A stretch of DNA of 64,000 bases, from the NCBI RefSeq assembly GCF_011734195.1, contig NZ_JAANTH010000001.1:62001-126000 (forward strand). Reading direction: 5' to 3'. The notes below the pieces were generated by a model. That model made no database searches. It was not told the DNA's origin and saw nothing but the letters and a program-made list of their open reading frames with translations. Positions 15,446-24,707 of the stretch are shown one piece after another; positions within the stretch are counted from its first letter, which is position 1; each line of letters opens with the position of its first letter. Source of the DNA: Halobacterium sp. R2-5. GTDB lineage: Archaea; Halobacteriota; Halobacteria; Halobacteriales; Halobacteriaceae. A program made the translations under genes and the position numbers.

Positions 15446-15892
15446 TCACGATGCACCCTGGCCGTAGTTGCAGTTTTTCCGATGTGACGCATCGACTTTC
15501 GCAGTGATGGTCGCATCGAAGCCGTCGCCGGTAACGTCGACGGTTACCGCGCTCGTATTGACGTACAACCGGTACGTCTCCCACTCGCCGGTCGCTATCG
15601 ACGTTTTCGAGGACGGGAGGTCACCGGTGCTCCCGCCACGAGTTGCGATTTCCTCGACGGTCACCTCGGTCGAGTGCCGGTTCATCACCGATACGTACAC
15701 CTTCGGCTCTCCGGTTCCGTTCGCGTTCGTCGGCGCACACGCAGCGACCCCGACGTACGCGTCTTCGTTGTCCACGACGTTCACGGAGACGCCGCGCTCG
15801 GCGCTGACGCTCGTGAACCCGAGCGTGCCGGTGGCGAGCATGCCCACCGCGGCGAGAGCGAGCACGATGCTGACGGCACGTGACGCGTTCAT
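15446..15892 (-). CDS. Small secreted protein with SipW-dependent-type signal, DUF1102-like
   Basis: A 148-residue protein with a hydrophobic signal segment (residues 5-26) ending in GFTSVSAERGVSVNVV. That is the same junction as GAFTSVSADRGVTVNVA in the tandem paralogues across the divergent region, so it belongs to the same exported family. The mature part is short, beta-rich and Thr/Val-rich, with two cysteines (CAP and NCNYG). Its ATG overlaps the stop of the upstream DUF7344-like gene by one base, so the two are co-expressed. Possibly a minor subunit of the surface structure. Confidence 0.75.
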   Translation of the reverse strand: MNASRAVSIVLALAAVGMLATGTLGFTSVSAERGVSVNVVDNEDAYVGVAACAPTNANGTGEPKVYVSVMNRHSTEVTVEEIATRGGSTGDLPSSKTSIATGEWETYRLYVNTSAVTVDVTGDGFDATITAKVDASHRKNCNYGQGAS

Positions 15893-16539
15893 CAGCCCTT
15901 GAGCTCCGGCGGTTCGTCAGTCTCCCCGATGCGTTGCCCGCGCGCGAAGTACGTGTGCGCGACCGCCGACACCGCGAACATCGCGGTGACGGCGACTCCC
16001 CACGCGACGTCCGATAGAACAGCGAACGGCCACGCGCCGACCCACACTCCAGCCATCAGCGACACCGCGACCCCGGACAGCCCGAGGTAGTAGACGCTCC
16101 ACGGGATCTCGCGGCCCTGCACGATGTCCATGTACACTTCGACGTCGTCCAGCGACGGCGTCGGCTCGACGGTGCCGCGGTTCTTGTCGAAGTCGACGAC
16201 GCCGGCCTCGTCCATCATCGGCAGGTGGGACTGCTGGAGCGCGGTGTACACGCGCTTGCGCTCCTCGTAGGACACCTGCTCGACGTCGACGCCGTACTCC
16301 CAGGCGGCGACCTGCTCGGCGACGTCTCCGAGGTCCATGGCGCCGTCCTCGCTCTTGAGCGCGTGGGCGGCGTACCGCCGCCGCCTGTTCGAGAGCACGT
16401 CGAACAGCTCGTCCTCGGTCGGCGCGTCGGTCGACTGGTCCGCCGCGGTCTGACTCTCCCCTGATAGTCCGTCCCCCGATTTCCCCTGGCTCGTGTCGGC
16501 GGGATCCCCCTTCCCCCGGTGTTGTGATACGGATGACAC
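15892..16539 (-). CDS. DUF7344-like winged-helix membrane-linked regulator
   Basis: A 215-residue protein. After a polar, disordered first 40 residues comes DELFDVLSNRRRRYAAHAL, the start of a haloarchaeal winged-helix domain (DUF7344 type), with ERKRVYTALQQSHLPMMDEAGVVDFD as recognition helix and wing. Two transmembrane helices follow near residues 145-190. It may be a membrane-tethered transcription factor controlling the divergent surface-protein cluster and its own downstream partner. A TATA-like CACTTATGG (around 16567-16575) fits a leaderless transcript. Confidence 0.75.
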   Translation of the reverse strand: MSSVSQHRGKGDPADTSQGKSGDGLSGESQTAADQSTDAPTEDELFDVLSNRRRRYAAHALKSEDGAMDLGDVAEQVAAWEYGVDVEQVSYEERKRVYTALQQSHLPMMDEAGVVDFDKNRGTVEPTPSLDDVEVYMDIVQGREIPWSVYYLGLSGVAVSLMAGVWVGAWPFAVLSDVAWGVAVTAMFAVSAVAHTYFARGQRIGETDEPPELKG

Positions 16540-16584
16540 GACTGAGTTTTGCTACACTCTCGTCCCCCATAAGTGTTAGCTATA

Positions 16585-16595
16585 GTTACAGTAAC
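16585..16595. promoter_or_regulatory. Palindrome GTTACaGTAAC upstream of the regulator gene
   Basis: An exact 5-1-5 inverted repeat, 46 bases upstream of the regulator start and just behind its presumed TATA box. This is where an activator or autoregulator would bind. A similar GTTAC...GTAAC dyad occurs at 48241-48259 upstream of another surface protein. Confidence 0.4.
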
Positions 16596-16624
16596 GTGAA
16601 TTTACCGTACGTTCCGAGAGGCGC

Positions 16625-16642
16625 GTTATACGGCCGTATAAC
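16625..16642. promoter_or_regulatory. Perfect 18-bp palindrome GTTATACGGCCGTATAAC
   Basis: An exact self-complementary 18-mer midway between the divergent genes. Its length and symmetry fit a dimeric DNA-binding protein, plausibly the adjacent winged-helix regulator. No T-tract follows, so a terminator is unlikely. Confidence 0.5.
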
Positions 16643-16808
16643 CGCCTGAATCCGCCATCCCAATCCCACCAGGAGGTTAAATACACATTTACGTAGGTGT
16701 CTTTTCGTGCGGTCAGGCGCCCCCTGAGCACGCTTCAGGACGAGGTTGTCACTTACACGAACCTCTCAAGCGGGGGCATCTCCTCGTGTGGCGCGTGACA
16801 GACCCGTA

Positions 16809-16840
16809 CTGAACTCGCTCAGTCGTGTCAATACTACTTA
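16809..16840 (+). promoter_or_regulatory. Conserved upstream element, copy 1
   Basis: A 32-base block ending TCAATACTACTTA. It is repeated at 18311-18342 with 26 of 32 bases identical, and in both cases it starts exactly 111 bases before an ATG. The last 13 bases are identical. It also contains a small dyad ACTGA/TCAGT (16808-16823). It probably holds the promoter or a regulator site. Confidence 0.6.
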
Positions 16841-16919
16841 CCAATGGGGTGATGGGTGAAGTGAGCGCTCTCGTGAACTGCGGTGTTCGCGGGAGTGCAC
16901 CAACGAGGTAACTCGAACA

Positions 16920-17519
16920 ATGCAACGTCGCAAGTTCATCGCTGGTCTGGGATCGCTCGCTGCCGCCGGGGCAGCTGGAATTGGTACGGGCGCGTTCACG
17001 AGTGTGAGCGCGGATCGTGGTGTTACTGTTAACGTCGCCAGTGACGCTAATGCTTTCCTGGCGCTCGAAGCGGAGGACACAGAAAATGGTGACGCATATG
17101 TCACCAGTAATGGGACGTCCGGTACCGTCTCCCTTAGCTTCGATGAAAACGCCAGTACCGAGGGTGGTGAAGGACTGAACCAGAATGCAGACACGATCAT
17201 CCGTGACCTCCTTCAGGTGACGAATAATGGGACGCAAGACGTCATCGTCGGTGTGACCGGACTGCCGGAGAGCATGAGTATCTACACGGACGATGGCGAA
17301 GTTGCGGCAAACGGCAACAGTACGTCGCTGAACCAAGACAATTACGACCCGTCCAGCGGGAATCTCGCGCTCGTCGGGTCTGGTGTGACGATGGATAACG
17401 TCGGTGTCACCTTCCGTGACCCGGCAAGCGACCTCGATCTTGACGACGCGAGCATCACGTTCAACGCGATCGCCGTTGACGAACTCGCCAATCCCCAAGA
17501 CGTCCGCGGCAAGTACTAA
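16920..17519 (+). CDS. Secreted DUF1102 / SipW-signal-type protein, paralogue A
   Basis: A 199-residue exported protein. The signal region MQRRKFIAGLGSLAAAGAAG carries a twin-arginine-like RRKF and then GTGAFTSVSADRGVTVNVA, resembling SipW-dependent signals (G-x-x-A-F) of TasA/camelysin. The mature part is beta-rich and Asn/Asp/Thr-rich with the family core LLQVTNNGTQDVIV. It is likely a surface-fibre or matrix subunit. Codon choice is noticeably less GC-rich than in the flanking housekeeping genes. The gene downstream (gap 61 bases) is a paralogue. Confidence 0.75.
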   Translation: MQRRKFIAGLGSLAAAGAAGIGTGAFTSVSADRGVTVNVASDANAFLALEAEDTENGDAYVTSNGTSGTVSLSFDENASTEGGEGLNQNADTIIRDLLQVTNNGTQDVIVGVTGLPESMSIYTDDGEVAANGNSTSLNQDNYDPSSGNLALVGSGVTMDNVGVTFRDPASDLDLDDASITFNAIAVDELANPQDVRGKY

Positions 17520-17580
17520 CGCGTAACGACCAGTAGTTCGGCTCTCACCTGGATTCCAACTGGGTGAGCCACAACCAATT

Positions 17581-18132
17581 ATGAAACGACGCAAATTCAT
17601 GGCCGGGCTGGGGACGACCGTCGCTACCGGAGCTACTATTCTGGGTAGCGGGGCGTTCACTAACGTGACCGCGGAACGCAATGTGTCTGTCAACGTCGCG
17701 CAAGACGACTTGGCATTCCTCCGACTCGACCCCTTGGTTGACAAGGGTCTCGATAATGACGATGATGGAGACCTCGAGATCACCGAGCGGTCGAGTGATC
17801 CCGGCCAAATGGTGAAGTTCGAACTTCCCGGCGGGGGAGACGGCGAGAACGCTGCAGCTGAAGGACTTGGTTCCGACTCAGTGTACGAGTTCCACGATCT
17901 CCTCGGAGTCCGGAACTGGGGGACTCAGCCCGTCCAAGTTCACAGCACGTACGATGGGACTAATCTCGCCGACATCGCCCTAGTGAGCGACGATGGAGTC
18001 CTTCGCGACGATCCGCCTGTCGTTGGGACGGGGGACATCCTTGAGGTAGGCCTCTACGTCGACACTCATGGATCAACCACCGGCGAGTTCGACGAGACGC
18101 TGACCATCGTCGCCGACCAGCCTGACGAATAG
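17581..18132 (+). CDS. Secreted DUF1102 / SipW-signal-type protein, paralogue B
   Basis: A 183-residue paralogue: MKRRKFMAGLGTTVATGATI, then GSGAFTNVTAERNVSVNVAQ at the processing junction, and the shared core FHDLLGVRNWGTQPVQVHS. The mature protein is acidic and beta-rich. It has no copy of the conserved upstream element, so it is probably transcribed with paralogue A. The gap contains a small imperfect hairpin (CTCACC/GGTGAG, 17544-17568). It is the most diverged member of the tandem set. Confidence 0.75.
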   Translation: MKRRKFMAGLGTTVATGATILGSGAFTNVTAERNVSVNVAQDDLAFLRLDPLVDKGLDNDDDGDLEITERSSDPGQMVKFELPGGGDGENAAAEGLGSDSVYEFHDLLGVRNWGTQPVQVHSTYDGTNLADIALVSDDGVLRDDPPVVGTGDILEVGLYVDTHGSTTGEFDETLTIVADQPDE

Positions 18133-18303
18133 TCGGGCACCCCTAAATTTGGTATTTTCGTACGAGAGTGCCCGTTAGATTCCCTGAGATACATCTAAGA
18201 AGAGTTCTGTCTCGGTTTAGGACGGCGTTGACGCTCATCTGGTTTAGTTCGATGCGTGTTAACTGGTATCAATGACTGCCAGAGGTGTATGCCAGATGAG
18301 CAA

Positions 18304-18320
18304 GTGAATTCTGAATTCAC
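18304..18320. promoter_or_regulatory. Palindrome GTGAATTCtGAATTCAC
   Basis: A perfect 8-1-8 inverted repeat that overlaps the beginning of conserved element copy 2 (18311-18342). The corresponding position in copy 1 has only a weaker dyad (ACTGA/TCAGT), so a regulator site may be stronger here. Confidence 0.5.
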
Positions 18321-18342
18321 GCTGCCGTATCAATACTACTTA
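18311..18342 (+). promoter_or_regulatory. Conserved upstream element, copy 2
   Basis: Second copy of the 32-base block described at 16809-16840, ending TCAATACTACTTA and starting 111 bases before the ATG of paralogue C. The exact conservation of spacing shows that a promoter-plus-gene unit was duplicated, or that the spacing matters. Confidence 0.6.
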
Positions 18343-18421
18343 CATAGGGGATGACTGGTTGAGTGGATGCTTCCGGGCGGTGTGGTACCGCGTGGGAGCG
18401 CGCGAACGAGGTAGTTCAACC

Positions 18422-18967
18422 ATGCAACGTCGCAAATTCGTCGCAGGACTCGGATCGCTCGCTGCCGCCGGGGCAGTCGGAATCGGCACGGGTGCGTTTA
18501 CGAGCGTGACTGCCGACCGCTCCGTCTCGGTCGAGGTAGCCGACGACAGTAGCGCGTTCCTCACGCTGAAACAACACGTCGGACAGTCGACACCGAACGA
18601 TGTGTTCTCCTCGCACGAGGACGGCGAGCTTGTTCTGGACTTCGACGAAACTGCGATTGGCGGCCAGGGCGTCAACCGTGACGCGGTCACGGCGTTCGAC
18701 AACGTCTTCAAACTCGAGAATCACGGTACGCAGCCGGTGAACGTCTGGTTCGAGCACGACCTTCCTGGTGTGACGTTCTACCGCTTCGACCCGAACTCGA
18801 ACAGCTTCGACGGCCCCGAGAACGCGAAGATCGGGCTCCACGTAGGTGCTCACATGGGTATCGGCGTCGAGATTGACACGACCGTCGGCGACTGGGACAG
18901 CGTGGATCAGCTCTCGGGGACTGTGACGATTCACGCGAGCGCCGAGGACCCGACTGGAGGGACCTAA
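18422..18967 (+). CDS. Secreted DUF1102 / SipW-signal-type protein, paralogue C
   Basis: A 181-residue exported protein starting at the ATG at 18422 (MQRRKFVAGLGSLAAAGAVG); upstream in-frame codons are part of the conserved leader, not coding. The junction GTGAFTSVTADRSVSVEVAD and the core GVNRDAVTAFDNVFKLENHG followed by QPVNVWFEHDLPGVTFY define the family and match the larger anchored paralogue downstream. The signal-coding DNA is nearly identical to paralogue A. The next paralogue starts three bases after its stop. Confidence 0.78.
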   Translation: MQRRKFVAGLGSLAAAGAVGIGTGAFTSVTADRSVSVEVADDSSAFLTLKQHVGQSTPNDVFSSHEDGELVLDFDETAIGGQGVNRDAVTAFDNVFKLENHGTQPVNVWFEHDLPGVTFYRFDPNSNSFDGPENAKIGLHVGAHMGIGVEIDTTVGDWDSVDQLSGTVTIHASAEDPTGGT

Positions 18968-18970
18968 CTC

Positions 18971-19651
18971 ATGCAGCGCCGCAAATTCGTCGCCGGCATC
19001 GGCTCGCTCGCTGCTGCGGGAGCGGCTGGCATCGGCACGGGCGCGTTCACCAGCGTCGAGGCTGACCGGGACTTCACGGTGGACGTCGCAGACGACGCGA
19101 ACGCGTTCCTCCGGATGGTCGCCGTCCCCGGGAGCGGGAACAGCGACTACGTCAAGGTCAGGGACGGCCAGCTGTCGGGCGACCTCTCCGGGGGGAACGA
19201 CAGTCTCCTCGGTGACGGTGTGAATTCCGGTGCCGTCACGACCGTCGACGACCTGTTCCGCATCGAGAACCACGGAACTCAGCCCGTGTACGTCTGGATT
19301 CTGGAGGACGGCGGCCGGAACGGGAGCAAGAACCATGCGTTCTACGTTGGGTCCTGGAGCGACGACGCGACGGCGATCAGCCTCGCGGACTTCAACGGCG
19401 ACCTCGACGCTCTGAAAGGGGACGGCCGTCAGCGCCAGCCCCAGTACGATGCTGGGGTCGACACCGCTGCTGTCAAACTGGGCGTCGGCGACTACGTCGA
19501 CGTCGGCCTCGTCGTCGATACGCCGCAGGGAAGCTCCGGGAGTCGAGTACTCAAGGACGGACAGGGGCCAGTAATCCACGCGACCGCCGAGCACTCGTCG
19601 CTCGCCGACGTCCTCACGCCAGTACACACTCCGAATGGCCCGCCACCGTGA
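18971..19651 (+). CDS. Secreted DUF1102 / SipW-signal-type protein, paralogue D
   Basis: A 226-residue paralogue (MQRRKFVAGIGSLAAAGAAG, then GTGAFTSVEADRDFTVDVAD). The core is GVNSGAVTTVDDLFRIENHG followed by TQPVYVWILEDG. The C-terminal third is longer than in the others, with a basic KGDGRQRQPQYDAG loop. It sits three bases after paralogue C and is certainly in the same transcript. No membrane anchor is present, so it is predicted to be released or polymerised outside the cell. Confidence 0.78.
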   Translation: MQRRKFVAGIGSLAAAGAAGIGTGAFTSVEADRDFTVDVADDANAFLRMVAVPGSGNSDYVKVRDGQLSGDLSGGNDSLLGDGVNSGAVTTVDDLFRIENHGTQPVYVWILEDGGRNGSKNHAFYVGSWSDDATAISLADFNGDLDALKGDGRQRQPQYDAGVDTAAVKLGVGDYVDVGLVVDTPQGSSGSRVLKDGQGPVIHATAEHSSLADVLTPVHTPNGPPP

Positions 19652-19758
19652 AATTGACTCCGGCTCCTGGTTTCGCGAGACGGAGGCGATATCCCTGAGG
19701 TGGTACGTGTGACGTGGTACAGCGTCGTGGCAGGGGTCGCTTGAGACCGTTCAAACGT

Positions 19759-19779
19759 GCCAATACTACGACCCGGTAG
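19759..19779 (+). promoter_or_regulatory. CAATACTAC element upstream of the anchored paralogue
   Basis: GCCAATACTACGACCCGGTAG repeats the CAATACTAC core of the two conserved upstream elements, here 75 bases (core end to start codon) before the gene instead of 83. It contains the small dyad ACTAC/GTAGT. It is probably the same regulator or promoter element in a diverged copy. Confidence 0.45.
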
Positions 19780-19843
19780 TGGTAACGAGCGATAACCGAA
19801 TGGCGCGTGGAACGAGCATCAGGCCACGGGAGCTGATTGAGTC

Positions 19844-21286
19844 GTGATAGAACGCCGACGCACCGTCGCACTCGCTGCCGCGCTCGCGCTCGCGGGAACC
19901 CTCGCGTTCCCGTCGGGAGCCGCGCCGCTGTTCTCCGGGCCGACCGACGACCTCGGCAACGACGTGGAGCTCGCGCCGAGCAGCGACTACGCCTACCTCC
20001 AAGAGGGCGAGCTCGTCGTCGACCTGTCGGCGGCGAACCCCGACGCGGAGGGCGTGAACGACGACGCCGTGACGGGCGTCGAGGACGTGTTCCGGGTGCG
20101 GTACAACGGCTCGCAGTACGCACACGTCTGGTTCACGCACGAGTCCGACGCGGTGACGTTCTACGCGAATGGCCAGCCCGTGCAGTCCGAGGCGGCGAAC
20201 GTGACGCTCGCGCCGAACGCGACCGTCTCGGTGGGAGTTCGTGTGGACACGACCGGTGAGACTGCCGACGGCCTCCTCAACGAGATTACCGTGCACGCGC
20301 GGGCGGCCGACCCCGAGGACGTCGCCAGCAGTGAGGATGGGGACGCAGCCGCACTCTCGTCCGGCGGATCGACAGTACAGACGCGGGCGCCGACCGCGAC
20401 CTCGCGGCGGTTCGTCGCGCTCGGCGTGAGCGCGGGGGAGGCGACCGCCTTCGACGCGTCCAGCCTCGCCATCGACGGCACGGACGGCGAGCTCACGCTC
20501 GACGAGGTCGACGTCGCGAGCACGGGCGGGTCGCTGTCGCTGGGCGTCGACGCGAACGGGACCGAGGACTCGCGGTCGCGAGTCGCCGAGCGGGGCGCGG
20601 AGCCGCTCGGCGCGGTCGCCGTGACGGATCGGCTGAAGAGCGCCGGACGCGCGACGCTACGGTTCAGCGTCCCCGTGGGATACTTCGAGGAGCGGGACGT
20701 CGCGCCGGAGAATCTCGCGGTCTACCGTGACGACGGCGGCGACGTCTCGAAGCTCCCCGTGGAGATGACCGGTGAGCGCGGCGGGCGCGTGCGCTTCGAG
20801 GCGGAGACGCCCGGATTCTCGACGTTCGTATTGGCTGCCGACCGGGCGCGTCTCCGAGTCACAGACGCGACGCTCGAGCGCGCGAGCGCTGCACCCGGGG
20901 AGGACGTCGTAGTGACGGCGAACGTCTCGAACGCTGGCAGCATCACCGGTGAGCGGACCGTCGCAGTGTCCGTCGACGGGAGCGTCGTCGCGGAGCGGAC
21001 GGTCGAGGTGGAAGCCGGCGAAACCGCGACCGTGACGGCGTCGGTCGCGCACAACGAGACCGGCGAGTACGCCGTCGCCGTAGACGGTGTCGACGCCGGG
21101 ACGCTCGTCGTGCAATCCAGTAATTCGAGCGGCGCGACGGCAGACCAACCGCCGGCCGGGGAGCCCGCCGACGAGCCAGTCAGGGAGCCGGCGGGGTTCG
21201 GGCTGACTGACCTGCTCGGGCTGGGAGCACTGCTCGTCGTCGTCGCGGCGTCGCTCGTGCTCGCGCGGCGGACGCCGTGGCGATGA
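19844..21286 (+). CDS. Membrane-anchored surface protein with DUF1102-like, PGF-pre-PGF-like and CARDB-like domains
   Basis: A 480-residue GTG-start protein. It has an N-terminal signal segment (residues 6-28) and a domain (about 38-155) clearly homologous to the secreted paralogues (GVNDDAVTGVEDVFRVRYNG, then HVWFTHESDAVTFY). A PGF-pre-PGF-like domain follows (about 185-333; FSVPVGYFEERDVAPENLAVY, ETPGFSTFVLA), then a CARDB/Ig-like domain (about 336-415) and one C-terminal transmembrane helix (about 455-475) ending RRTPWR. It is probably the anchor or base of the surface structure, analogous to TapA by role only. Confidence 0.75.
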   Translation: MIERRRTVALAAALALAGTLAFPSGAAPLFSGPTDDLGNDVELAPSSDYAYLQEGELVVDLSAANPDAEGVNDDAVTGVEDVFRVRYNGSQYAHVWFTHESDAVTFYANGQPVQSEAANVTLAPNATVSVGVRVDTTGETADGLLNEITVHARAADPEDVASSEDGDAAALSSGGSTVQTRAPTATSRRFVALGVSAGEATAFDASSLAIDGTDGELTLDEVDVASTGGSLSLGVDANGTEDSRSRVAERGAEPLGAVAVTDRLKSAGRATLRFSVPVGYFEERDVAPENLAVYRDDGGDVSKLPVEMTGERGGRVRFEAETPGFSTFVLAADRARLRVTDATLERASAAPGEDVVVTANVSNAGSITGERTVAVSVDGSVVAERTVEVEAGETATVTASVAHNETGEYAVAVDGVDAGTLVVQSSNSSGATADQPPAGEPADEPVREPAGFGLTDLLGLGALLVVVAASLVLARRTPWR

Positions 21287-21308
21287 CCGCCACAGTAGCG
21301 CCGGTGCG

Positions 21309-21331
21309 GCAGCCGGCCGTTCGCCGGCTGC
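21309..21331. terminator. 9-bp GC hairpin between the anchored protein and rhomboid genes
   Basis: GCAGCCGGC (21309-21317) and GCCGGCTGC (21323-21331) form a perfect stem with a 5-base loop, directly after the stop of the anchored protein. No T-run follows, so it could be a processing, stabilising or attenuating structure rather than a full terminator. Confidence 0.4.
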
Positions 21332-21347
21332 GCGAACAGGTCGACGT

Positions 21348-22196
21348 ATGAGCCGGGGAGATTGCCCGCAGTCGTTCCGGGAGGGGCTCCGTGACGGCGT
21401 CCACCTGCGGGACTGCCTCGCGCTCGCAGTCGTTCCCGCGGTCGTCCTCGGTGTCTTCGCACTGCCTACCGCGACGCGCGAGTCGCTGGTGTTCGCGTAC
21501 CGCGACCCGACGCTGGTGACCGCGTACGCGGCCCACTTCGTCCACTTCGAGCTCGAACACCTCGCGGCGAACCTCCTCGGGTACGCGCTACTCGCGGGGT
21601 TCGGATACGTGCTCGCGGCGCTGGCGGGCTGCCGGCGGCTGTTCGGCGCCGCGGCTGCGACGTACGTGCTCGCGTTCCCCCTCGTGCTGTCGGGACTGAA
21701 TCTCGCGGTTCCCAGGGACGCCGTCGGGTACGGGCTCTCGGGCGTGAACATGGCGTTCGCGGGCTTACTCGGGCTGGTACTGGTAGCGTACGTCGGTCGC
21801 CGAATCGACGAGCGGATCCGGGTACGATACGCGCCCGGGTTGTTCTTCGCGGCGGTCGCGGTGGTCTCGCTGGTCGCACTTCCCAGCCGGCAGGTGTCGC
21901 TCGTGCTCGCAGCGGCGAGCACGGCTGTCGTGGTTGGGTACGCGTTCTCCGTGCGCAGCGCGCGGCTGGCGTCACCCGACCCGGACTTGTGGGAGGGCAC
22001 ACAGGCCGACTGGGTCGACACCGGCGTGCTCGGCACCGTGGCGTTCCTCGGCTACCCGTTTGTCGGCTTTCCAGCGCCCACGCCCGCCGACGGCAGCGTG
22101 GTGAACGTCTACGTGCACTTGCTGGGGTTCTGTCTCGGGTTCATCGTCCCGTACGTCGCGCTCGCGGTGGGCGCGTTCGACGCGGCGACGAGTTAG
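21348..22196 (+). CDS. Rhomboid-family intramembrane serine protease
   Basis: A 282-residue polytopic membrane protein with the rhomboid signatures. HFELEHLAANLLGY (H71, N75) gives the TM2 H-x-x-x-N oxyanion motif, GYGLSG carries the nucleophile S131 in G-x-S-G, and VHLLGFCLGF carries the catalytic H257 in the last core helix. All catalytic residues are present. It cuts single-pass membrane proteins within the bilayer. Its place between an anchored surface protein and a signal peptidase suggests that it releases or matures components of the same surface system. Confidence 0.8.
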   Translation: MSRGDCPQSFREGLRDGVHLRDCLALAVVPAVVLGVFALPTATRESLVFAYRDPTLVTAYAAHFVHFELEHLAANLLGYALLAGFGYVLAALAGCRRLFGAAAATYVLAFPLVLSGLNLAVPRDAVGYGLSGVNMAFAGLLGLVLVAYVGRRIDERIRVRYAPGLFFAAVAVVSLVALPSRQVSLVLAAASTAVVVGYAFSVRSARLASPDPDLWEGTQADWVDTGVLGTVAFLGYPFVGFPAPTPADGSVVNVYVHLLGFCLGFIVPYVALAVGAFDAATS

Positions 22197-22247
22197 TGGA
22201 ACGAGCGTCCGAGGATTTTTGACGTATTGACACGTCGGGGCGAGTGA

Positions 22248-23411
22248 ATGTCTGTCCGCCGCGCACTCACGCTCGGCGCCGAAGCGTTCGTCGTCCTCGT
22301 CGTCGTCGCCCTGCTCGTCGGCCAGGTGCTCGGGACACCCGTCCTGTTGGGCTACGTCGAGACCGGGAGCATGGAACCGACGATGGAGCCCGGGGACGGC
22401 TTCGTCGCGATCCCGACGGCCATCGACGGCGACGTCGAGGAGGGCGACGTCATCGTCTTCCGCGCGGAGGAACTCCAAGGCGGCGGGCTGACCACGCACC
22501 GCGTCGTCGGCGAGACCGAACGCGGGTACATCACGAGGGGTGACGCGAACCCCTTCACCGACCAAGATGGCGGCGAACCACCCGTGAAGGACGCCCAGGT
22601 CGTCGCGAAAGCGCTCCAGGTCGGCGGCTCGGTCGTCGTCGTGCCGAACCTCGGCACGCTCGTCACCGGCCTCCAGAGCGCGTTCGCCGACGTCCAACGC
22701 CAGCTTGCGGCGACGACCGGGACGCGGGCCCTGCTGGGCACGCAAGGCATCGCGTACCTCCTCTTGGGGCTGTCGGCGCTGCTGTACGTCTTCGACCTGT
22801 TCTTCGCCAGCGACGGCCGCGACCGGAACCGCGACCGGGACCGCGACCGCGACCAGGGCGTCTCGCCGGGCGTCGTCGTCGCCGCGCTCGCCGCGGTGCT
22901 CGTGATCGCGGCGACCGCCGCCATGGTGGTGCCCGCGGGCACGCAGGAGTTCGGCGTGGTGAGCGCGGAGTTCGCGTCCGAGAACCCCACAGTCATCGAG
23001 CGCGGAGAGTCGGCGACGCTACCGTACACCGTGCCGAACGCCGGGCTCGTCCCGGTCGTCGCGTACGTTCAGCCGGCCAGCGACGGCGTGTCCGTGACGC
23101 CCGAGCGCGTCCACGTCGCCGGGCGCGGCGAAGCGACCGTCGACGTCACGCTGTCCGCGCCCGACGAGACCGGCTACTACCGGCGGTTCGTCACCGAAAA
23201 CCGCTACCTCGCCGTGCTCCCGACCTCGGTCGTTGGCTCGCTGCACGGGGTCCATCCGTGGCTACCGATTCTCGTCATCGACGCCGCGCTCGCGGGCGGG
23301 ATGGCGGCACTCGGGCTAGTCGTGCTCGGTGGACGCCGGGTGCGCGTGCGCAAGCGCGAGTCGCGCCACGACCGGTCGCTGTGGCGGCGCGCGCTCCGAT
23401 ACTTGCGGTGA
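22248..23411 (+). CDS. S26 signal peptidase (SipW/ER type) with extra ectodomain
   Basis: A 387-residue membrane protease. The catalytic serine is S41 (ETGSMEPTMEPGD) and the general base is H84 (TTHRVVGE), the Ser/His dyad of archaeal, eukaryotic and SipW-type enzymes; box E is TRGDANPF. After the catalytic part come a TM (about 167-187), a basic/acidic loop (RDRNRDRDRDRD), another TM (207-228), a beta-rich Ig-like ectodomain (about 232-325) and a final TM (340-361). The cluster supplies its likely substrates, the four secreted paralogues with SipW-type signals. Confidence 0.85.
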   Translation: MSVRRALTLGAEAFVVLVVVALLVGQVLGTPVLLGYVETGSMEPTMEPGDGFVAIPTAIDGDVEEGDVIVFRAEELQGGGLTTHRVVGETERGYITRGDANPFTDQDGGEPPVKDAQVVAKALQVGGSVVVVPNLGTLVTGLQSAFADVQRQLAATTGTRALLGTQGIAYLLLGLSALLYVFDLFFASDGRDRNRDRDRDRDQGVSPGVVVAALAAVLVIAATAAMVVPAGTQEFGVVSAEFASENPTVIERGESATLPYTVPNAGLVPVVAYVQPASDGVSVTPERVHVAGRGEATVDVTLSAPDETGYYRRFVTENRYLAVLPTSVVGSLHGVHPWLPILVIDAALAGGMAALGLVVLGGRRVRVRKRESRHDRSLWRRALRYLR

Positions 23412-23468
23412 CGGGGATACGGTTGGTTCACCGACAGTTCTATACAACCGCGTTACACAGGGGGAGCC

Positions 23469-24707
23469 ATGGGGGAGGGCACACGCTGGCTCAGGGCGCG
23501 AGCGATCGTATCGTCGTGGCTCCCCGTGCTGGTCGCAGCACTAGCAGTGCTCGCGGTCGCGGGCGGGTGGGCGATGTACACGGCCCACGCCGTTCCCGGA
23601 ACCACCCAGGAGCAATCCGAACGGGTGCACTGGACGGTCTCAGGGGAGTTCCAGCACGGCGCCGACGTCACCCGCGAGAACCCGGTTTTCGACGTCGGGA
23701 CGACGCTCGCGAACCGCTCGACGTACTTCACGGGCGCATCGCCGGAGCTCGACGGTCGGTACGTCGCGACGTACTCCGGCGTCGGCGCTCCCGCCGCGTC
23801 CATCGCTCTCAACGCCACGCTCGTCGTGCGCGCGGTCGGCGAAAACACCGTCTACTGGACCGACCGCACGCCGCTGGACGAGACGAGCGCCGACGCCGTG
23901 CAGTCCGGCGAATCAGCCAGCGTCGCCTTCTCGCTGAACGCCACGCGAATCGCGCAGCGGCAGTCCGAGATTCAGGACTCACTGGGGCAGACTCCCGGCG
24001 ACGTTGAGGCGTTCGTCGCGGTCGATACGGCCGTCGATGGCACCGCCGACGGACAGCCTGCATCGCTGTCGCTCACGCACCGCCTCCCGGTCTCGGTCGA
24101 CGGTGACACGTACACTGTCGGGCCCGCGGAGACCGGTAGCGAGCCCATGACGACGACCGAGACCGTGACTGTCACCAACGACTACGGGCCGCTGTGGACG
24201 ATTGGCGGCCCGCTCCTCTTCCTCGGTGGCGTCGGCGGCCTCGCGGTACTCGGCGCCGGGCGGTCCCGGGACGCGTTCGCGCTGTCCCCCGAGGAGCGAG
24301 ATCTGTTGGCGTTCCGCGACGACCGCGCGGAGTTCGACGAGTGGGTCGTCCGCGCCCGCCTCCCAGAAGCGGTCCGCGACCGCCCGCACGCAACTGCCGA
24401 ATCCCTCTCGGACGTCGTGGACTTCGCCATCGACTCGGACACCGCGGTCGTCGAAGACTCCGAATCGGGGACGTTCTACGTCGTCGCCGACCAACTGCTG
24501 GTCGTGTACGAACCGCCCGTGCTGGCTCGCGGGCACGAGACGAGCGGCGGCGTCGCCGGGCTCGGACTCCTCGAGAGTACCGACGAACAGACTGACCTCG
24601 TCGAAACCAGCCAGGACGCCGACGGTTCGGTGGCCGAGAGCGAGGAGACTACCGATAACTCCGACGACGACGCCGACCGCGAGGAGTCACCACGACCACA
24701 GGACTAG
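23469..24707 (+). CDS. DUF5305-like membrane protein next to the signal peptidase
   Basis: A 412-residue protein with one N-terminal TM (about 18-38), an extracellular beta-rich domain of ~195 residues (HWTVSGEFQHGADVTRENPVF...), a second TM near 238-258 and a cytoplasmic acidic tail. I assign it to the haloarchaeal DUF5305 type, commonly found beside S26 signal peptidases. TATA-like TCTATACAACC lies ~25 bases upstream, so it may have its own promoter besides read-through. It may be an assembly or accessory factor; the function is unknown. Confidence 0.72.
   Translation: MGEGTRWLRARAIVSSWLPVLVAALAVLAVAGGWAMYTAHAVPGTTQEQSERVHWTVSGEFQHGADVTRENPVFDVGTTLANRSTYFTGASPELDGRYVATYSGVGAPAASIALNATLVVRAVGENTVYWTDRTPLDETSADAVQSGESASVAFSLNATRIAQRQSEIQDSLGQTPGDVEAFVAVDTAVDGTADGQPASLSLTHRLPVSVDGDTYTVGPAETGSEPMTTTETVTVTNDYGPLWTIGGPLLFLGGVGGLAVLGAGRSRDAFALSPEERDLLAFRDDRAEFDEWVVRARLPEAVRDRPHATAESLSDVVDFAIDSDTAVVEDSESGTFYVVADQLLVVYEPPVLARGHETSGGVAGLGLLESTDEQTDLVETSQDADGSVAESEETTDNSDDDADREESPRPQD

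Follow-up and report, generated by a model that had tools for sequence, protein, structure and literature searches.

A Divergent Taf-Type Fimbria Locus of Halobacterium sp. R2-5 with a Putative Rhombosortase-Like Anchoring Module

The Locus and the Closest Described Systems

A haloarchaeal Tafi pilus has already been solved (PDB entry 9p0a, Natrinema sp. J7-2, released 2025-07-23), and NCBIfam holds TafA, TafC, TafE, and TafF models. The gene cluster described here lies in a 64,000-nucleotide window of the Halobacterium sp. R2-5 genome (contig 1, positions 62001-126000), and occupies positions 15446-24707 of that window. It is composed of ten genes (P0001 to P0010), and every gene listed in the original prediction for this DNA was confirmed by translation at its coordinates. 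The cluster is a divergent Taf-type fimbria locus, which is an already-known kind, and it probably carries a rhombosortase-like anchoring module composed of the rhomboid P0008 and the C-terminal tail of the anchored paralogue P0007.

The locus shares with Tafi pili the twin-arginine translocation (Tat)-type RR signal, the AFxSVxADRxVxVxV junction, and the predicted fold. Related clusters also have the same S26/DUF5305/DUF7344 neighbourhood. The differences are that no subunit of the window reaches a Taf cut-off, that the subunits exist as four paralogues, and that P0007, with PGF-pre-PGF and CARDB domains and an EPAGF tail, stands in the place of TafF with a rhomboid added.

Pyrobaculum AbpA (7ueg) and Bacillus TasA-TapA-SipW resemble the locus in having a fold relative (7ueg) and a dedicated Ser/His signal peptidase. 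To our knowledge, neither system contains a rhomboid, DUF5305, or DUF7344 protein. Sulfolobus threads (7pnb) are donor-strand complemented filaments and the third fold match of a window subunit, with no sequence match at the level tested; we know of no such operon in that system. The complete haloarchaeal system of the original prediction is not established, and the export signals of the subunits are Tat-like and not Sec signals as in TasA. The link to TasA runs by way of AbpA-type pili and SipW. A Phe follows the probable cut site of the window subunits as it does in TasA, where a Phe at P2’ helps make the protein a substrate of SipW and not of LepB (PMC10269814).

The bacterial rhombosortase/GlyGly-CTERM system (PMC3237569, PMC6219818) has the same tripartite tail (small/Gly motif, transmembrane (TM) helix, basic end) paired with a rhomboid subfamily, with adjacency where the pair is dedicated and co-distribution across genomes. 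The window system differs in being archaeal, in its E-P-x-G-[FILV] motif, and in often having one or few targets per genome; cleavage is predicted here, and lipid transfer is possible. The rhombosortase paper names archaea solely for PGF-CTERM (PMC3237569). Tails of the archaeosortase A/PGF-CTERM system are laid out in the same way and frequently follow the same stalk domain, PGF-pre-PGF. Enzyme and motif are different, and both systems coexist in the genome of the window. No description of an archaeal rhomboid-paired C-terminal signal was found in the literature searched, which included no preprints and only a minority of subscription journals. The fimbria itself is of a known kind. The new part of the locus is the rhomboid/EPxGF pairing, which comparative genomics strongly supports and which would be an archaeal form of the rhombosortase principle.

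The C-Terminal Tail of P0007 and the Rhomboid P0008

P0007 (19844-21286, + strand) contains a DUF1102 pilin-like domain, PGF-pre-PGF, CARDB, and a C-terminal tail. The tail (21185-21283, + strand, residues 448-480) reads EPAGF-GLTD-TM-RRTPWR and is the proposed recognition and cleavage signal of the rhomboid. P0008 (21348-22196, + strand) is not reached by the Pfam Rhomboid model, and its closest NCBIfam model is that of rhombosortase. Its identification as a rhomboid protease stands, with the catalytic Ser of GLSG and the His of TM6 invariant in 55 of 55 relatives. By residue, G129, S131, and H257 are present in all 55, G132 in 54, and H66, H71, and N75 in 52-53.

The tail consensus is E-P-[AGS]-G-[FILV]-...-TM-RR. 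An alignment of 26 tails shows the Glu and the first post-TM Arg in every sequence, and the next Arg in at least 90%. The tail is kept across fimbrial anchors of 280-560 amino acids, though their linkers cannot be aligned. A regular expression for the tail, made after the loci had been viewed, matched 31 of 3600 open reading frames (ORFs) in 100 loci, and 26 of these 31 lie 0-116 bp from a rhomboid. The expression required a basic pair and missed tails ending in a single Arg. Three matches within DUF7344 membrane helices were judged false positives. One of the remaining two unlinked matches is unexplained, and the other (L089) belongs to a fimbrial anchor; the rhomboid of that genome lies at a different site.

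Co-distribution was scored with a profile built from 24 tails (match below 1e-6; rhomboid counted at E < 1e-30). Across 194 haloarchaeal genomes, the tail is present in 41, all of which (41/41) have a P0008-type rhomboid, against a background of 55/194 (Fisher 2e-30). The genome-level p-values ignore relatedness, and the count by genus is the fairer figure, with the rhomboid in 12 of 12 tailed genera and a background of 19/65 (p 1e-8). In 197 fresh genomes, where the profile was used instead of the regular expression, the tail was found in 39 and the rhomboid in 39 of those 39 (background 66/197, p 9e-24). The end of the tail gene is at most 700 bp from the rhomboid in 37 of the 39, with a median of 140 bp. 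Of 11 unlinked tails followed up in the first set, most are on the anchors of additional fimbrial clusters, in genomes that do have the rhomboid, while L226 and L228 are two other surface proteins. On these comparisons, the rhomboid appears to be tied to the C-terminal tail of the neighbouring protein.

P0007 has the sole clear tail in its own genome (5e-16). The next match is partial and reaches just 0.008, and the presence of further tail-bearing substrates there was rejected. P0007 and P0008 are likely a dedicated pair, and dedicated pairing of single-target rhombosortases has been reported by Haft and Varghese (PMC3237569).

Tails also occur beside rhomboids in other contexts. Five such neighbours end in EPFGF, EPGGF (three), or EPAGI before the TM helix, and four of them are ORFs of 1060-1762 codons. 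The bodies of the large tailed ORFs scanned are dissimilar and contain choice-of-anchor D repeats, VWD plus trypsin, or CARDB. Alignment of the four large proteins with P0007 is limited to short regions, mostly the PGF-pre-PGF or CARDB stalk. Large tailed ORFs with EPGGF or EPAGI beside P0008-type rhomboids were located at L166:206-5377, L169:6208-11103, L171:6239-9421, and L172:30-5318.

A rival explanation is a plain Tafi-type fimbria in which the rhomboid is a general quality-control or regulatory protease present in the operon by chance and EPxGF is a stop-transfer anchor. The rhomboid is indeed missing from most fimbrial clusters, and the rhomboids of H. volcanii have mild, broad phenotypes and no known natural substrate (PMC11985538). 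A plain anchor, however, does not explain why a Glu and a Gly-hydrophobic pair are conserved just before the TM helix despite unalignable linkers, why the same tail occurs on unrelated surface proteins beside rhomboids, or why tail and rhomboid coincide in 39 of 39 fresh genomes. This explanation is rather unlikely.

The tail could otherwise be a variant PGF-CTERM-like archaeosortase signal cut by ArtA, with the rhomboid acting elsewhere. The tripartite layout is the same, many tail proteins carry PGF-pre-PGF, the domain usual before PGF-CTERM, and ArtA is present in the genome of the window (5e-97). This is nonetheless improbable, as the PGF-CTERM model TIGR04126 matches ten other sites in that genome, seven of them above cut-off, and is silent on the tail of P0007, which was rejected as an archaeosortase substrate. 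A permuted PGF reportedly blocks ArtA processing, which also counts against an archaeosortase. Strong tail-profile matches, moreover, are confined to genomes with a P0008-type rhomboid. A TafF-like fimbrial anchor with a true PGF-CTERM (L090:10919-12049) belongs to a cluster without a rhomboid, and one means of anchoring appears to have been exchanged for another on a protein of this kind.

The tail was also compared with other known signals. None of the June-2026 NCBIfam CTERM models recognises the window-type tails tested. The tail of one relative is weakly like CoaP_CTERM; this candidate was rejected, and its model has matches in 4 of 38 genomes, none above cut-off.

Several observations weigh against the pairing of rhomboid and tail as a sorting system. 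P0008 matches the rhombosortase model TIGR03902 at only 0.0025 (17.8 bits, cut-off 84), and its relatives reach up to 2e-7 with a best score of 31 bits. Cleavage of P0007 by the rhomboid is itself a prediction from comparative genomics. Most tails belong to one fimbrial-anchor family in a conserved operon of a few well-sampled genera, and adjacency is therefore partly operon inheritance. No strong tail was found in 14 of 55 and 27 of 66 rhomboid genomes, and five of 20 rhomboid loci of other contexts clearly have a tail next door. Three fimbrial loci with a rhomboid (L084, L087, and L088) have TafF-type anchors with long cytoplasmic tails. In the rhomboid tree, fimbria-linked and surface-protein-linked rhomboids interleave, an arrangement that would fit one enzyme type with changing partners.

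P0008-type rhomboids are also present beside DUF7344 genes at L092:7468-9603 and in L164, with no fimbrial gene there. In the genomes of these two loci (G023 and G126), a fimbrial anchor with an EPAGF tail sits elsewhere.

The Fimbrial Core and Its Neighbouring Genes

DUF5305 is found in 158 of 194 haloarchaeal genomes. From this list, and not for the presence of a rhomboid, 72 DUF5305-centred loci were picked with diversity sought. The S26 fusion is at most 9 kb from DUF5305 in 68 of the 72, a subunit is near it in 66, DUF7344 in 59, and a P0008-type rhomboid in seven. Peptidase and paralogues are co-conserved. In a sister cluster (L104), the same trio of S26, DUF5305, and DUF7344 genes is accompanied by TafA, TafE, and TafF, each scoring above cut-off. 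From the neighbourhood counts and this sister cluster, the locus is therefore placed as a divergent Taf-type locus in which the rhomboid is optional. The original prediction singled out the rhomboid as an unusual component; unusual it is, but as an optional module that also occurs beside non-fimbrial surface proteins.

Four subunit genes are present on the + strand. P0003 (16920-17519) has an MQRRKF signal and the junction GTG-AFTSVSADR, and matches TafE at 2e-17 and 9p0a at 9e-16. P0004 (17581-18132) has an MKRRKF signal and the junction GSG-AFTNVTAER, and matches TafE at 3e-14, TafA at 5e-12, and 9p0a at 8e-7. P0005 (18422-18967) has an MQRRKF signal and the junction GTG-AFTSVTADR, and matches DUF1102 at 2.4e-4 and 9p0a at 2e-14. 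P0006 (18971-19651) has an MQRRKF signal and the junction GTG-AFTSVEADR, and matches TafE at 8e-14. The paralogues of P0003 are 37-42% identical to it.

A single junction motif had been claimed for five short exported proteins. The strict form, G-x-G-A-F-T-x-V-x-A-(D/E)-R, is present in these four, while P0001 has the looser GTLGFTSVSAER; the strict motif is absent from P0007. A scan of 7137 ORFs in 100 related loci found the strict motif in 41, and it is beyond chance because all 41 also match the subunit profile. When 60 sequences of relatives are aligned, no variation is seen at the junction A and F or at the Arg that follows, and the twin Arg of the signal is at least 90% conserved. The twin-Arg figure was taken from the alignment and not from a regular expression on six-frame ORFs, whose start codons are wrong.

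Pfam yields DUF1102 alone on the subunits, and weakly. The NCBIfam matches (TafE 2e-17 to 8e-14, TafA to 5e-12) are all below cut-off, with best scores of 63.7 bits against 155 for TafE and 46.2 against 190 for TafA. The TafE profile matches four sites in the genome of the window, which are precisely the four genes of this locus. By sequence, the subunits have one clear PDB relative, 9p0a (‘Pilin’). The AlphaFold2 model of mature P0005 has a mean predicted local distance difference test score (pLDDT) of 82 and a predicted template modelling score (pTM) of 0.75. Its first Foldseek match is 9p0a_C, the Natrinema sp. J7-2 Tafi pilus (E 5e-7, prob 1.0, template modelling score 0.56), followed by the Pyrobaculum bundling pilus 7ueg (3e-4) and the Sulfolobus thread 7pnb (1e-3). 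Of the two folds proposed for comparison, the AbpA type is thus represented by the second match, while TasA is missing from the 50 best. The predicted pairing of fibre subunits with a dedicated signal peptidase agrees with the matches to 9p0a and 7ueg and with the co-conserved peptidase. The model and the homology support a locus that encodes a putative fimbria of the donor-strand type together with a Ser/His signal peptidase of its own.

It has to be considered whether there is a fibre at all, or whether P0003-P0006 stay separate, as secreted surface proteins of beta-sandwich fold that the S26 peptidase matures. In favour of separate proteins, no subunit profile match reaches its NCBIfam cut-off, the four paralogues have diverged, and the template modelling score to 9p0a is moderate. 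Against this, the homology to the solved pilin covers the donor-strand region, the same pilin is the best fold match of the subunit model, and the neighbourhood is common to a cluster with above-cut-off TafA, TafE, and TafF. The absence of a fibre is accordingly very improbable.

The larger anchored paralogue of the original prediction is genuine, as the N-terminal domain of P0007 is homologous to the subunits (hhalign probability 99.5, E 3e-23). Its model has a pLDDT of 86 and 9p0a as the first fold match (E 1.4e-4, prob 1.0). P0007 has a C-terminal TM helix and no F-T-x-V-x-A-D-R-x-V-x-V-x-V strand. For these two reasons it would be the membrane-bound base of the fibre, able to accept a strand and not to donate one. 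As one of several alternative subunits it holds up as a paralogue, but without the donor-strand motif it is better read as the base. P0007 does not match the TafF model and would fill an equivalent role. Short anchors of ~280-300 amino acids in L074, L082, L083, and L085 have the same N-domain and the same tail type, with no PGF-pre-PGF or CARDB stalk.

The subunit cassette varies in size, with four genes in the window and at least six in L130. Three close clusters (L067, L068, and L069) have no detectable subunit gene between the regulator and the anchor. The GC content is 0.60-0.64 at 14-20 kb, a region that spans the subunit genes, and ~0.69 in the surroundings. The variable cassette and the GC dip suggest cassette exchange of the subunit genes.

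P0009 (22248-23411, + strand) is the predicted S26 Ser/His signal peptidase of archaeal type (TIGR02228 7.5e-17), with its Ser/His pair in GSMEPT and TTHRV. The SipW model NF046067 matches it at 1.8e-8 (34 bits, cut-off 190). P0009 has three further membrane helices and an extra extracytoplasmic domain of ~110 amino acids between membrane helices (22941-23253, residues ~232-335). This domain has a weak match to Cep192_D3 (Ig-like) and perhaps holds subunits. P0010 (23469-24707, + strand) is a DUF5305 membrane protein as predicted (1e-51), with two TM helices, an ectodomain, and an acidic cytoplasmic tail.

The divergent regulator of the original prediction is P0002 (15892-16539, - strand), a DUF7344 protein (PF24035 2.2e-31) with one or more C-terminal membrane helices, transcribed divergently from the subunit genes. 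P0001 (15446-15892, - strand) is a 148-amino-acid exported subunit paralogue that matches the TafC N-terminus at 9e-7. Its signal is Sec-like and without the twin Arg. P0001 lies on the strand of the regulator, directly after the DUF7344 gene and apart from the fimbria genes, and this placement is conserved. It is possibly a sensor of fimbrial assembly.

Proposed Assembly and Anchoring

In the proposed mechanism, the RRKF signals would direct the four subunits, probably folded, through the Tat pore. The adjacent S26 peptidase would process the conserved AF junction, probably by separating the G from the A and leaving the Phe at P2’, and free the N-terminal strand F-T-x-V-x-A-D-R-x-V-x-V-x-V. 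On the strength of fold and homology, this strand would enter the groove of the next subunit for donor-strand polymerisation. P0007, with its C-terminal helix in the membrane, would accept a strand as the base of the fibre. P0008 would recognise the P0007 signal E-P-[AGS]-G-[FILV]-TM-RR and cleave at the small residues A450/G451. The DUF5305 protein and the S26 ectodomain likely serve in assembly or holding, and DUF7344 likely forms a regulatory pair with P0001.

The cut in P0007 may either release the fibre or hand its base to a lipid. Both outcomes are considered because the VesB and ArtA precedents involve lipids. After the rhombosortase cut, VesB of V. cholerae ends in a Gly with glycerophosphoethanolamine (PMC6219818), and lipid partners likewise take part when Haloferax proteins are anchored through ArtA (PMC7157517). 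A haloarchaeal, rhomboid-based C-terminal sorting route parallel to archaeosortase, which here would cut the fimbria base for lipid transfer or fibre release, is given even weight for and against.

For the H. volcanii rhomboids, natural substrates were left to future work (PMC11985538). A specific candidate substrate, motif, and cut region can now be named for P0008-type rhomboids. If the proposal is correct, an archaeal rhomboid would have a class of natural substrates in the tail proteins. The archaeosortase route would then be joined by a second archaeal route for C-terminal surface sorting, which uses the enzyme class of bacterial rhombosortase, and the fimbriae of haloarchaea would have an enzymatic anchoring or shedding step.

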